DNA of 11,624 nucleotides, from positions 1-11,624 of the forward strand of contig JALGVQ010000086.1 in NCBI GenBank assembly GCA_025774615.1. Direction: 5' to 3'. How positions within the stretch are numbered: the first letter of the stretch is position 1; each line of letters starts with the position of its first letter. This document shows positions 3,858-8,545 of this stretch, piece after piece. Source of the DNA: a bacterium (GTDB taxonomy: Bacteria; Blakebacterota; Blakebacteria; Blakebacterales; Blakebacteraceae). The position numbers and the translations under genes are program-made. The notes beneath the pieces are model-generated. The model did no database searches. It was not told the DNA's origin and saw only the letters and a list, made by a program, of their open reading frames with translations.

Positions 3858-4823
3858 CTAACTCTCCTGGTTGATCTTATCGAGTCTCACGACCTCGACA
3901 GGCGGCCCGGCTGTAACAACGAGTGAACCGGTTTCAGAATAATACTCTCCGTCTGCCATATAAGGGATCTTACCTTCACCGGCGGTCACTTCGAGGCGTA
4001 ATGTGCCGCATAACATGACCTGTTCGGGGTAGCCTTCGCTGCTTCTCTGTAACAGGGGACGGATGACCTTTGCGACGGCGCGCCGGTCCAGGGTCTCAAT
4101 ACCGAGTACCTTGAATCCATCCTCAGGGCATTCCATCTCCTGCAGAGGTTTGAAAACGGGCAGTCGCCTGAGCGCTGAGGCGTAGAGTCCCACAAAATGG
4201 TCGGAGTCGTATTCCAGCTCGTCGATACTGATGGTCCAGGGGCAGGGCTCGAAGGCGCGGCGGGCGAAGGAACCCCCCGCCATGTAGCTGCCCGCCAGAC
4301 GAGCGCCCAGATAAAGGTGTGAGAGCGCTACCTGGCCACCATAGGTGATGTACTCGGCAGAGACATTCCTGAAGGCCCCCAATCCGAAACTCAATGTGGT
4401 CCGATCCCCGACCTTGAGTGTACGCAGTTTCCCGGTTGGCAGTGGTCGCTTCTCCAGATATGCCTCCTGCAGGATCGAAAGAGCGATAACAGGTTCGACA
4501 CTCTCGGTTTCCCTGGCGACGACTCCCGCGGTGCCGCCATGCAGCAGAAGAAGCCTCGGTGGAATGTCGCCCTCCCAGATTCGGAGCATCTCATCCACGA
4601 GGCGCTGAACAGTGCCGTCACCGCCTGAGATGACAAGCAGATCAAGCCCTTCCTGTCGCCATTTTGTGAGGGTGGTGGTGAGTACGTCCGGATCTCCGAT
4701 CAGTACGGTCTCACCCATTTCTCTGAACGCGGCCACGATCTCTCCAGCCAGATCCCGGTTCCGGGCATTCCTGAAGGATCCGGGATTGAAGACCAGACCG
4801 ATCCTGTTGACAGGAGTGTTCAT
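3858..4823 (-). CDS. diacylglycerol/sphingosine-kinase-type lipid kinase (DAGK catalytic domain)
   Basis: A 321-residue soluble protein of the DAGK-cat/YegS/LCB5-like family, which uses ATP to phosphorylate a lipid hydroxyl at the membrane face. Motifs in order are FNPGS (12-16), the nucleotide-binding SGGDGTVQ (66-73), HGGTAGVVARE (95-105), which occupies the place of the usual G-T-G/A-N-D-(F/L)-A-R loop, and DGE (291-293) in the C-terminal beta domain. The length is normal (YegS is about 300). The third motif departs from the common form: GTAG in place of GTxN, with Arg-Glu kept. The start at 4823 has a modest GGCGGGAA site about eight bases upstream. It lies 38 bases downstream of the GNAT-fold gene on the same strand, so the two are probably co-transcribed. 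Diacylglycerol, ceramide or a sphingoid base are all possible substrates; the sequence does not decide. Confidence 0.85.
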   Translation of the reverse strand: MNTPVNRIGLVFNPGSFRNARNRDLAGEIVAAFREMGETVLIGDPDVLTTTLTKWRQEGLDLLVISGGDGTVQRLVDEMLRIWEGDIPPRLLLLHGGTAGVVARETESVEPVIALSILQEAYLEKRPLPTGKLRTLKVGDRTTLSFGLGAFRNVSAEYITYGGQVALSHLYLGARLAGSYMAGGSFARRAFEPCPWTISIDELEYDSDHFVGLYASALRRLPVFKPLQEMECPEDGFKVLGIETLDRRAVAKVIRPLLQRSSEGYPEQVMLCGTLRLEVTAGEGKIPYMADGEYYSETGSLVVTAGPPVEVVRLDKINQES

Positions 4824-4861
4824 CGTCAGAGTTCCCGCCAGGGGTTTCAGAGAGTCTCCGG

Positions 4862-5983
4862 TTACAGCTGTTTATGCCAGACCCGGAAGATCTTGTAGAT
4901 CTCGCCGCCCATCCGCTCCATGTCGGAACGGACCGCTTCATTCGTCTCCATCTCGTGATGAGTGTCGATGACCTTCAGACCGGCATCGATCGCTGAGCGG
5001 AATATCGCGGTCCCCATCAGGATATCGAGTCCCCGGCCCCGGTATTCCTTCTTCACGGCCCCAAGGAGGAGATCGAGCTGTGTCGTTTTCTTTGCGGCTC
5101 GCATGATCTTCAACAGGCCGAAGGGGAAGAGTCTGCCCTTCGCCTGCTGGATGCCGAGGGTGAGATCGGGCATGCTTATCACGAATCCGACCGGGTCATC
5201 ATCGACGAACACCGCCTTGACCAGTCGGGGATCGAGCATGGGCAGATAGCGTTTGGCGAGGGCGTCCATTTCTTTTTCGGTGAGCGGGGTGTAACCGTAA
5301 ATGTTGGACTCGGTGTACGTTTCATTCATGAGCCCGAGAATAGGCTTTACCCACGGCTTGAGCTCTTTCCGCTTCGTGAATTCGGTGACTTCGAAACCAC
5401 GCTTCCTGACCCGTTCGCAGATCTTCCCGTAGGGCTCCGGGACAGGATCAGGGATGGGATAGGTGTACACGAAATAGTCCATGTCCTTCACATAACCCTC
5501 ATCCTCGATGATTCCCGGCAGCCATTCGAAATTGTAATAGGTGGCGATAGTGGCCCGGTGCTCGAAACCCTCGATCAGATATCCTTCGGGATCCTGATCG
5601 GAGAAGCCGTACGGTCCGACTATCCGCTCCATACCTGACTGGCGAGCCCACTCCTCAACGTGGGCAAGAAGTGCGTGGATTACCTCCCGGTCCTCCCATG
5701 CTTCAAGCCATGCCCACCGGGCGATCTTCTCTCCCCGATGCTCGTTATAGCGCCGGTTGATGATCCCCATGATGCGACCGACGAGTTCCTCACCCCGCCA
5801 GGCCAGAAGCCGGATTGTATCACAGTGGGCGAATGATTGATTTTTCTCGGGATCGAACACCGACCACTCATCCATCCAGATGGGAGGTACCCAGTTCTCC
5901 CGTCCCTTATGTATCTTGGCAGGGAGGAAGATGAACCGTTTGAGATCCTTCCTGGTCTGTACCTCTTCCAGCACGATCTCCAT
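4862..5983 (-). CDS. YghO-like GNAT-fold acyltransferase
   Basis: A 373-residue protein of the YghO-like group, often labelled only as hypothetical or, misleadingly, dATP pyrophosphohydrolase. The C-terminal half has the GNAT acyl-CoA loop in KKEYRGRGLD (311-320), with RGRG standing in for the R/QxxGxG motif, followed by a helix and IDTHHEMETNEA (339-350). The N-terminal half (about 1-150) contains LLAWRGEELVGRIMGIINRRYNE, a second GNAT-like beta hairpin, and GPYGFSDQDPEG (123-134), a stretch I associate with this family. It therefore looks like a tandem GNAT fold. It probably transfers an acyl group from acyl-CoA or acyl-ACP to an amine. No membrane segment or signal peptide is visible. ATG 5983 is chosen over the longer start at 6073 because GGAGG sits five bases upstream; the extra 30 residues are Pro-rich and unlike the family. 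It is the first gene of a pair with the lipid kinase. Confidence 0.8.
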   Translation of the reverse strand: MEIVLEEVQTRKDLKRFIFLPAKIHKGRENWVPPIWMDEWSVFDPEKNQSFAHCDTIRLLAWRGEELVGRIMGIINRRYNEHRGEKIARWAWLEAWEDREVIHALLAHVEEWARQSGMERIVGPYGFSDQDPEGYLIEGFEHRATIATYYNFEWLPGIIEDEGYVKDMDYFVYTYPIPDPVPEPYGKICERVRKRGFEVTEFTKRKELKPWVKPILGLMNETYTESNIYGYTPLTEKEMDALAKRYLPMLDPRLVKAVFVDDDPVGFVISMPDLTLGIQQAKGRLFPFGLLKIMRAAKKTTQLDLLLGAVKKEYRGRGLDILMGTAIFRSAIDAGLKVIDTHHEMETNEAVRSDMERMGGEIYKIFRVWHKQL

Positions 5984-5988
5984 CGCAA

Positions 5989-5993
5989 CCTCC
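5989..5993 (-). promoter_or_regulatory. ribosome binding site deciding the YghO-like start
   Basis: GGAGG on the minus strand with a five-base spacer to ATG 5983. It rules in this start over the upstream in-frame start at 6073. Confidence 0.7.
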
Positions 5994-6019
5994 AGGGGAA
6001 TTGCATTGAGGAAGGGTGG

Positions 6020-6048
6020 AGTGTAGCCAATGGGCTGGAACGCTGCAA
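6020..6048 (-). promoter_or_regulatory. weak candidate promoter for the YghO-like/lipid kinase pair
   Basis: On the minus strand, TTGCAG (6043-6048) and TACACT (6020-6025) are separated by exactly 17 bases, giving a leader of roughly 30 bases before ATG 5983. The -35 matches consensus at only three positions and the -10 at four. Confidence 0.3.
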
Positions 6049-6096
6049 GGAGGGGCAGATCCAGGGTGACCATGGAGTGGATGAACGGGGTGGAGG

Positions 6097-6723
6097 ATGA
6101 ACGATCAGCGGACTGAGGAATGGCTGAGTATGATCAGGAGCAGTGTGGCTTCCAGAGACAGGCTCGCTCTCGATCCGGGTCGAGCCGCCCTCCTGGTCAT
6201 CGACATGAACGTCTATTTTACCTCTCCAGCCGGACGCTCATATCTGCCGATGACTGAACCGGTTATCCCGAACCTGAAACGGCTCCTCGAATTCTGGCGA
6301 ACCGCCGGGGCCCCGGTCATCTTCACCCGTCATGGACATGAAGGAGATCACGACCTCGGCATGCTGGGACGATTCTTTTCTGATTATATCAGAGTCGATG
6401 AACCGGAAGCCGAAATCATTTCCGAACTCTCTCCATATGATAATGAGACCGTCATCCGGAAGAAGACCTATGACGCGTTTCTGGGAACTCCCCTGAGTTC
6501 GATTCTGGAAGAGAAGGGGGTCGACCAGGTGCTTGTTACTGGTGTCCTGACCCACATGTGCTGTGAGACCACCGCCCGCTCGGCTTTCTGTCGTGGGTTC
6601 GAGGTGTATGTTGCGGTCGATGCCATGGCCTCCAGCAGTGAAGAGCGCCATCTTGGTTCACTTCTCTCCATGGCCGATTCTGTCGCTGTCATGATGAGCA
6701 CCACGGAAATCCTCGACCGGTGA
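6097..6723 (+). CDS. isochorismatase-family cysteine hydrolase
   Basis: A cytoplasmic hydrolase of 208 residues, the standard size for the family, which includes isochorismatase, nicotinamidase, N-carbamoylsarcosine amidase and ureidoacrylate hydrolases. The catalytic triad is visible: Asp36 in LLVIDMN, Lys122 in IRKKTYDAF, and Cys155 in TGVLTHMCCETTAR. The CCETTAR form resembles amidase-type members more than isochorismatase, so cleavage of an amide or carbamoyl group is more likely, but the substrate is unknown. GGAGG abuts ATG 6097 with no spacer, which is poor; the in-frame ATG at 6130 has TGAGGAA nine bases upstream and may be the true start, removing 11 residues without touching the domain. 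It is the first gene of a three-gene operon: its TGA overlaps the GTG of the flavoprotein in GTGA. No convincing promoter is visible upstream on the plus strand. Confidence 0.9.
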   Translation: MNDQRTEEWLSMIRSSVASRDRLALDPGRAALLVIDMNVYFTSPAGRSYLPMTEPVIPNLKRLLEFWRTAGAPVIFTRHGHEGDHDLGMLGRFFSDYIRVDEPEAEIISELSPYDNETVIRKKTYDAFLGTPLSSILEEKGVDQVLVTGVLTHMCCETTARSAFCRGFEVYVAVDAMASSSEERHLGSLLSMADSVAVMMSTTEILDR

Positions 6724-7637
6724 GATCTGAAGCGATCGTCATCATCGGAGCGGGTCCGGCCGGTTGCGCGGCGGCAGTCCAGTGTGTCCGTCTTGGTGTG
6801 ATGCCCCGTCTCATCGATCGGAACGGGAGGCCGGGGGGACTGCTCTTGAATGCCTGGTCAGTCGAGAACTATCCCGGGATCGAACCGACAGACGGCAGGG
6901 CTATGGCAGTTCACCTGAAGGAATTCCTCGACCGGTTCGATATCACGATCGAGCAGGAGATCGTCGATGGTATTCACGTCGAGAGCGTTCATGGCGAAGG
7001 AGAGCACTACCTGGTCGAAACGACGGGTGAAAACACACTTGTCCGGGCAGTGATAGTCGCGACGGGAACCCGCCCGAAACTCCTCGTCGTTCCGGGTGCG
7101 GATGATCTGCGGGAAAAGAAACTGTGGTACGAGGTTATCGATCTTTTCGAACTGGAGCCGGATCCCGGACATATCGTGGTTATCGGGGGCGGGGAGGCGG
7201 CGCTCGATTATTCACTCTCTCTTGCCGGAGCGGGTGGGCGGGTCACCCTGCTGGTCAGGGGGGTGACATACCGGGCCTGCCGGAGACTGATCGAGGCAGT
7301 GGAGGCGTCTCAGACGATCACTCCCCTGTTCGGGGTGGAGGTCGAGAGTCTGGAGAGTACCGAGGGTGGTGTCTCTGTCAGATTTTCCAGAGCCGCTGTG
7401 GAGACCACGCTGGCATGCAACGGTGTTGTTGCGGCTCTCGGGCGAGAGGCTGCGACCTCAGACCTCCTGAAGGAATGCCCTGTGGAGAAACAGAGTTCGA
7501 TCTATACCGATTATCAGGGTCTGTTTATCGTGGGTGATGCCCGGCTCGGAGTGCTCGGCCAGGCTGGGATCGCGGTGGGTGATGGCCTGGAGGCGGCAAT
7601 GGCTGCCGTATCGGTCGTGGAGAGGGGGAGGGTGTGA
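6720..7637 (+). CDS. thioredoxin-reductase-fold FAD/NAD(P) oxidoreductase lacking the redox CxxC
   Basis: A 305-residue pyridine nucleotide-disulfide oxidoreductase of the two-domain thioredoxin reductase size. The FAD loop is IGAGPAG (9-15), followed by GRPGG (36-40) and WSVENYPG (46-53); ATGTRPK (114-120) ends the first FAD half; the NAD(P) loop is IGGGEAALD (155-163); and FIVGDAR (269-275) closes the FAD site. In thioredoxin reductase a CxxC sits in the NADPH domain just before the NAD(P) loop. Here that segment (about 134-148) has no Cys, and the five cysteines (16, 22, 187, 233, 253) form no CxxC. It therefore cannot be a classical thioredoxin reductase and is closer in logic to TrxR-like ferredoxin/flavodoxin reductases. 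The usual HRRxxxR phosphate-binding motif reads VRGVTYR, so NADH preference is possible. The GTG start sits in a 4-base overlap with the hydrolase gene, implying coupled translation. The electron acceptor may be the radical SAM protein or its carrier (inference). Confidence 0.9.
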   Translation: MRSEAIVIIGAGPAGCAAAVQCVRLGVMPRLIDRNGRPGGLLLNAWSVENYPGIEPTDGRAMAVHLKEFLDRFDITIEQEIVDGIHVESVHGEGEHYLVETTGENTLVRAVIVATGTRPKLLVVPGADDLREKKLWYEVIDLFELEPDPGHIVVIGGGEAALDYSLSLAGAGGRVTLLVRGVTYRACRRLIEAVEASQTITPLFGVEVESLESTEGGVSVRFSRAAVETTLACNGVVAALGREAATSDLLKECPVEKQSSIYTDYQGLFIVGDARLGVLGQAGIAVGDGLEAAMAAVSVVERGRV

Positions 7638-8545
7638 AACTGGAGATCGTGCACACTACCGGTGACGATGAGCTGGCCCAGGTATACGTGGCCAGACTCG
7701 ATGATGGTTTCCTCGTTGAATTTGTGGAGTCGGTTCAACCGCCGATCCCACGGAATGAGAAATGGGTGCTGATCGTTTCGACCCTTCGAGGCTGTCCGGT
7801 TGGATGCCCGATCTGTGATGCGGGTGGGAGCTATGCCGGGAAACTCACGCGTGAAGAGATCATGGCTCAGATCGACTTTCTTGTCCGGAGCCGGTTTCCT
7901 GAGGGATCTGTCCCGATTCCGAAACTGAAGATCCAGTTCGCCCGGATGGGAGATCCTGCACTGAATGAAGCGGTGCTGGATGTGCTCGAAACCCTGCCCG
8001 GCACCTGGAACATGCCGGGATTGATGCCTTGCATCTCAACGGTTGCTCCGGCCGGTTGTGACCGGTTTTTCGACAGGCTCGTCACTGTCAAGGATTCCCT
8101 CTACGGGGACGGACAGTTCCAGATGCAGTTCTCCCTTCATACCACTGATGAGGATGCCAGGCGCCGGCTCATACCATGCCGGACATGGCCGCTGGAGAAG
8201 ATCGCGGAATATGGCGACCGGTTCTTCAGTGCGGGAGACCGGAGGATAACCCTGAATTTTGCGCCATCAGTCGGTGTGCCTCTTGAACCTGCACGTCTTG
8301 TACCTCTCTTTTCACCGGATCGTTTCATCATCAAGCTGACACCGATCAATCCCACTCACGCTTCTGTCAGTGCACAGCTCGTCGGTCTGATTGATCCTGA
8401 AAATGAGGATTCGAATCAGGCTGTCATCGAAGAGTTCGAGGCGTACGGTTTCGAGACATTGCTGAGCATCGGTGAATTGCGGGAAAATGCGATCGGATCG
8501 AATTGTGGGATGTATGTAACCCGAATGAGAGAATCAGCGGGATAG
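7634..8545 (+). CDS. short RlmN-like radical SAM protein
   Basis: A 303-residue radical SAM enzyme, expected to use a [4Fe-4S] cluster to cleave S-adenosylmethionine. The cluster motif is Cys54-x3-Cys58-x2-Cys61 in GCPVGCPICDAG. The core follows the RlmN/Cfr family: IVSTLRGC before the cluster, ARMGDPALN (103-111) for the MGEP SAM motif, SLHTTDEDARRRLIP (167-181), KLTPINP (234-240) and SNCGMY (289-294) for the RlmN ACGQL with its methyl-carrying Cys355. It departs from RlmN in three ways: no N-terminal helical domain (E. coli RlmN has 384 residues), Ile47 at the position of catalytic Cys118, and Asp in place of Glu in MGEP. I therefore do not call it a 23S rRNA/tRNA methyltransferase. The GTG start overlaps the flavoprotein stop (GTGA), with a purine-rich GAGGGGGAGG just upstream. 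It ends eight bases from the convergent symporter gene. Confidence 0.85.
   Translation: MKLEIVHTTGDDELAQVYVARLDDGFLVEFVESVQPPIPRNEKWVLIVSTLRGCPVGCPICDAGGSYAGKLTREEIMAQIDFLVRSRFPEGSVPIPKLKIQFARMGDPALNEAVLDVLETLPGTWNMPGLMPCISTVAPAGCDRFFDRLVTVKDSLYGDGQFQMQFSLHTTDEDARRRLIPCRTWPLEKIAEYGDRFFSAGDRRITLNFAPSVGVPLEPARLVPLFSPDRFIIKLTPINPTHASVSAQLVGLIDPENEDSNQAVIEEFEAYGFETLLSIGELRENAIGSNCGMYVTRMRESAG

Follow-up and report, generated by a model that had tools for sequence, protein, structure and literature searches.

The radical SAM enzymes RlmN and Cfr are class A methylases, which have a barrel fold, a CxxxCxxC motif, a GEP/GDP motif and a C-terminal cysteine (C355 in E. coli RlmN). Class A methylases are described as using two conserved cysteines, and RlmN is described as unable to resolve the enzyme–RNA crosslink without its second cysteine (PMC9692996). 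The isochorismatase superfamily includes RutB, BiuH and EntB; its amidohydrolases have an Asp-Lys-Cys triad, whereas in EntB, which like PhzD is an isochorismatase (a vinyl-ether hydrolase), a glycine occupies the nucleophile site. Thioredoxin reductase (TrxR) is built of FAD and NAD(P) Rossmann folds and has a redox-active CxxC; TrxR-like ferredoxin-NADP reductases (FNR) without CxxC also exist. The window, which is the whole stretch of 11,624 nucleotides that was analysed, contains an operon for three proteins resembling these enzymes.

The first gene (6097..6723, + strand) encodes H, a 208-residue isochorismatase-fold cysteine hydrolase (PF00857, 2.5e-47) with the triad Asp36-Lys122-Cys155. 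It is followed by the gene for F (6720..7637, +), a TrxR-like FAD/NAD(P)H flavoprotein of 305 residues without CxxC, and by that for R (7634..8545, +), an RlmN-like radical SAM protein of 303 residues. The TGA stop of H and the GTG start of F overlap in a GTGA (6720..6723, +), as do the TGA stop of F and the GTG start of R (7634..7637, +). The three same-strand genes and the two overlaps of the preliminary description are confirmed in the sequence. The flanking genes (GNAT upstream, AgcS symporter downstream) are on the opposite strand, so the operon consists of H, F and R alone. A sister MAG (L003) shows the identical arrangement, including the flanking genes, and its R is 77% identical to that of the window. 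The divergent GNAT open reading frame extends over 4862-6073 (− strand); its probable start is an internal Met near 5983, as in the L003 relative, which would leave the promoter of the operon an intergenic space of about 114 bp. No sigma-70-like site was found in these ~114 bp between GNAT and H.

A scan of the genome collection with R gave the order H-F-R in a Myxococcota MAG (L005, whose phylum was given by the tree tool; R 61% identical) and in a Fervidobacterium MAG (L004, R 51% identical). A search profile built from four R proteins was then run on Thermotogota, Myxococcota and broad bacterial samples. R is present in 45 of 103 Thermotogota genomes, in 24 of the 282 genomes of the Myxococcota sample and in 28 of the 386 genomes of the broad sample, these 28 belonging to 21 families. 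The 386 genomes were taken as relatives of the window's genome, and nearly all share only the domain with it. The scores of intact R proteins lie at about 230-606 bits, against 46 and 53 for RlmN proper in the two genomes compared, and the search keeps the two proteins apart because these ranges are far separated. In a quick R tree the phyla are mixed outside a core Thermotogota clade and the R of the window lies among the Myxococcota rows, which suggests that the H-F-R unit may have been transferred between phyla. One of the carriers, G096, is what we take to be Thermotoga maritima MSB8, where R presumably adjoins what looks like a trp operon. R is broken in two genomes: in G065 its two halves (L181 and L182) are about 76 kb apart, and in G102 (L183) it is fragmented, with an internal stop, and a close relative of H is absent too.

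F lies at most 4 kb upstream of R, on the same strand, at 88 of 94 R loci, with a gap of at most 30 bases at 70 of them. Five of the six loci with no upstream F have R less than 200 bases from a contig end, and L092 is the only true exception. H precedes F at 73 of the 94 loci. At three of these (L094, L096 and L102) H and F form a single polypeptide, and these three loci occupy two regions of the quick R tree. The unfused H-F junctions overlap in 63 cases out of 70, and 39 of the 88 F-R junctions permit a 4-base overlap. At seven additional loci H is lost to a contig end. At the 14 loci where an upstream H is genuinely missing, the same genome encodes an H relative at another place, with a high score of about 140 bits or more; in one case the displaced H adjoins R on the other strand. 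The displaced H of L188 and L190 is found, probably by chance, near lysine-fermentation-like genes (CoA transferase, 3-keto-5-aminohexanoate cleavage enzyme).

The presence of the three proteins is also correlated. The H subfamily (at least 130 bits) occurs in 44 of the 45 Thermotogota genomes with R and in 1 of the 58 without it; the Fisher p value of ~7e-27 overstates the independent evidence, because genomes within one phylum are related. The single R-containing genome without the H subfamily is G102, the one whose R has an internal stop. A second TrxR-like protein is encoded in 43 of the 45 genomes with R, while those without R carry one, with two weak exceptions. Over 72 loci, the pairwise identity matrices are correlated (0.84 for R-F, 0.84 for R-H and 0.89 for F-H) and none of 500 permutations exceeds these values; such a correlation indicates a shared history, and would not by itself prove interaction. 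The linkage of H, F and R is far beyond chance, since dozens of distant genomes show the same order and the gene distances vary together. Because this order is kept across distantly related bacteria, among them the thermophilic Thermotoga group, the three proteins almost certainly run one uncharacterised biochemical pathway. The preliminary description supposed that they are made together and act in one pathway, which receives strong support from the conserved order, the H-F fusions, the presence or absence of the genes as a unit and the correlated divergence. The gene-neighbourhood search that it proposed reveals co-occurrence across distant genomes (Thermotogota, Myxococcota and the 21 families of the broad sample): the homologues are not mostly apart, and their adjacency is not limited to close relatives.

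We propose that H, F and R form a self-contained, uncharacterised three-enzyme pathway which acts on a small, probably anionic metabolite, F being the NAD(P)H electron source of R and H an amidohydrolase. We hold this proposal as a whole tentatively, with a confidence just short of even. It is based on the co-inheritance and gene order described above, on residue conservation and on a predicted fold, from which we infer the substrate class, the electron route and the order of the steps.

The triad of H (D36, K122, C155) is invariant in four sequences, and over 73 H proteins the Asp is kept in 97% and the Lys and Cys in 100%. The highest sequence similarity in the PDB is to the isochorismatase EntB, which has a Gly where H has its Cys nucleophile. 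Since the Asp-Lys-Cys triad is kept and Cys replaces the Gly of EntB, H is by its anatomy a cysteine hydrolase. None of the named NCBIfam equivalogs fits it, its scores being far below their cut-offs (85 bits where BiuH requires 370). In the proposed pathway, H would cleave the substrate or the product at an amide or carbamoyl bond.

F matches Pyr_redox_2 in Pfam (PF07992, 2.4e-24) and has the TrxR fold, in which the glycine motifs for FAD and NAD(P) are conserved. Its best NCBIfam equivalog is thioredoxin reductase (127 bits against a cut-off of 343). It resembles the TrxR-like FNR in having no CxxC, but its sequence is nearer to TrxR than to FNR (2.8e-25 against 2.9e-11). The description of F as a CxxC-less flavoprotein applies to the whole family: any CxxC is present in only 1 of 88 F proteins, no Cys is conserved across the 88, and near the CxxC site of TrxR most of them show Tyr-Glu. 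F is not a TrxR, since this motif is missing. Judging from its motifs, F can bind NAD(P)H and FAD, the usual disulfide exchange would not be possible, and the natural inference is that it delivers electrons to another protein, for example R, ferredoxin or flavodoxin. In our proposal, F would hand electrons from NAD(P)H to the cluster of R, directly or via ferredoxin/flavodoxin. This scheme of amide removal by H and electron transfer by F, which the preliminary description puts forward, is plausible.

F could also be a metabolite enzyme of the same pathway, which reduces or oxidises the product of H or R, while R is reduced by the general cellular ferredoxin. The three fusions join F to H and none joins it to R, so H and F possibly catalyse consecutive steps, and F and H are the pair that diverges most in step. 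F could thus work with H and not as the donor of R, and ferredoxin could reduce R without F. However, F is directly upstream of R at nearly all loci, even when H is elsewhere in the genome, and we judge it unlikely that F acts on a metabolite rather than on R.

R has no match in Pfam, and the RlmN/Cfr models of NCBIfam match it weakly (24-44 bits), far below their cut-offs: the best scores are 44 bits (cut-off 422) and, for TIGR00048, 35.6 bits (cut-off 290), and TIGR04432 gives 28 bits (cut-off 550). The fold was predicted with AlphaFold2 on four sequences (pLDDT 83, pTM 0.85). Foldseek aligns the model with an RlmN-type methylase from Sphaerobacter (6fz6, TM 0.69) and with Cfr (9p0p, TM 0.60); the identity to the nearest solved member is about 24% in the structural alignment. 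R shares with RlmN and Cfr the barrel fold, the GEP/GDP motif and the CxxxCxxC motif of the [4Fe-4S] cluster, whose cysteines (C54, C58 and C61) are invariant in 93 R proteins. It also shares the C-terminal cysteine: C291 aligns with C355 of E. coli RlmN, and all 90 R proteins that reach this position have a Cys there. In contrast, the position of C118 of E. coli RlmN corresponds to I47, and it is occupied by I, N, V, M, T or L across the 93 proteins and by Cys in none. The preliminary description of R as RlmN-like therefore holds for the fold and fails for the second cysteine, which is one of the defining features of the class. C142 was considered as a substitute for C118, being invariant in the first four R sequences, and was rejected, since it is Cys in only 17 of the 93.

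About 70 N-terminal residues of RlmN are missing from R, which has no RlmN N-terminal accessory domain. Four residues are invariant in R (K43, K99, R104 and Q165) and three nearly so (Q163, N208 and K234), whereas E. coli RlmN differs at these positions, with N, G, A and N in place of K99, R104, Q165 and K234. Conservation and strand spacing suggest that the interior of the barrel may hold a polar, anion-binding pocket. The model of R is least confident at residues 283-288 and in the tail (301-303); the segment 283-288 leads into C291, which would fit the mobile methyl-cysteine loop of RlmN. In the proposed pathway, R would hold a [4Fe-4S] cluster, together with SAM, inside its RlmN-type barrel and generate a 5'-deoxyadenosyl radical, and C291, near the C-terminus, would either carry a methyl/methylene group, as the corresponding cysteine of RlmN does, or donate hydrogen from its thiol. 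R would not carry out the standard two-cysteine methylation of adenosine, because it has neither an equivalent of C118 nor an RlmN-type N-terminal domain.

RlmN is also encoded in 28 of the 31 R-containing genomes checked, so R is a protein separate from RlmN, and the idea that it replaces RlmN is ruled out as a general rule. RlmN was not found in the genome of the window (G000, a MAG which is 82% complete), in the incomplete sister MAG G001 or in G415 (92% complete). R might nevertheless modify RNA or a protein like RlmN and Cfr do, the function of H and F being to make or recycle the group used. Such a role would agree with the fold, with the retained equivalent of C355 and with the high conservation of R, whose median identity is 49%, compared with 31% for F. 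We regard it as quite improbable, considering that R begins about 70 residues in and lacks the N-terminal domain, that it has no C118 equivalent and has its own invariant Lys, Arg and Gln, and that known class A methylation involves no amidohydrolase partner. R further differs from RlmN and Cfr in being encoded together with H and F.

The preliminary description proposed looking for additional conserved partner genes around the trio, and none was found: in a clustering of the neighbouring genes recurrence is seen among close relatives only, and when 112 neighbours were sorted by Pfam family, none of the families occurred in more than three. The hypothesis of a fourth pathway gene was dropped, as no neighbour family recurs beyond close relatives. 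The three genes therefore seem to form a complete set, and the neighbourhood is silent on their substrate.

Some local arrangements were observed. In the Fervidobacterium MAG (L004), the trio lies between genes for an nrdG-like activase and an anaerobic ribonucleotide reductase (688-1269 and 3901-5055); a tie to this reductase was considered and rejected, as the nrdG-trio-nrdD arrangement was not noted at other loci. In the Thermotoga group (L063-L068), a gene for a metallo-beta-lactamase-fold protein (glyoxalase-II-like) sits between F and R, as does an opposite-strand open reading frame of 414 residues in L065. In seven close relatives (L069-L076), a second radical SAM-like protein (CxxxCxxC; cluster c8, ~300 residues) is encoded just upstream of H, together with a recG-like gene. 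A phage or defence origin was rejected: no relatives were found in viral contigs and PADLOC gives no match for H, F or R. The plasmid relatives are solely RlmN-like proteins, with at most 33% identity.

It is doubtful that the role of the trio is to salvage or detoxify a small molecule that is damaged or foreign (an amide or a ureide) instead of building a needed product: the patchy but wide distribution, the lack of recurring pathway neighbours, the transfer between phyla suggested by the R tree and the combination of an amidohydrolase and a reductase are in keeping with such a function, but R is strongly conserved, which points to a reaction that is specific and demanding.

No paper on the H-F-R trio was found in the open-access literature, nor anything relevant on RlmN relatives without C118, and no model of Pfam, NCBIfam or PADLOC names R. 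It may be, and here our doubt somewhat outweighs our confidence, that R is the first single-cysteine member of the RlmN/Cfr fold, whose C291 serves to modify a small anionic metabolite, and that H-F-R is a new metabolic pathway, widely shared and probably found also in Thermotoga maritima, with a substrate and a product that appear in no pathway map.

A unit which keeps a fixed order in many bacterial families, is present whole or absent, and is sometimes fused, is very likely a real pathway, and this one is named by no database model used in this analysis. R is an exception in a fold class where two cysteines are the rule, which bears on the evolution of that chemistry and on whether the RlmN/Cfr fold can act on small molecules. 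The existence of culturable carriers among the Thermotogota makes the pathway testable.
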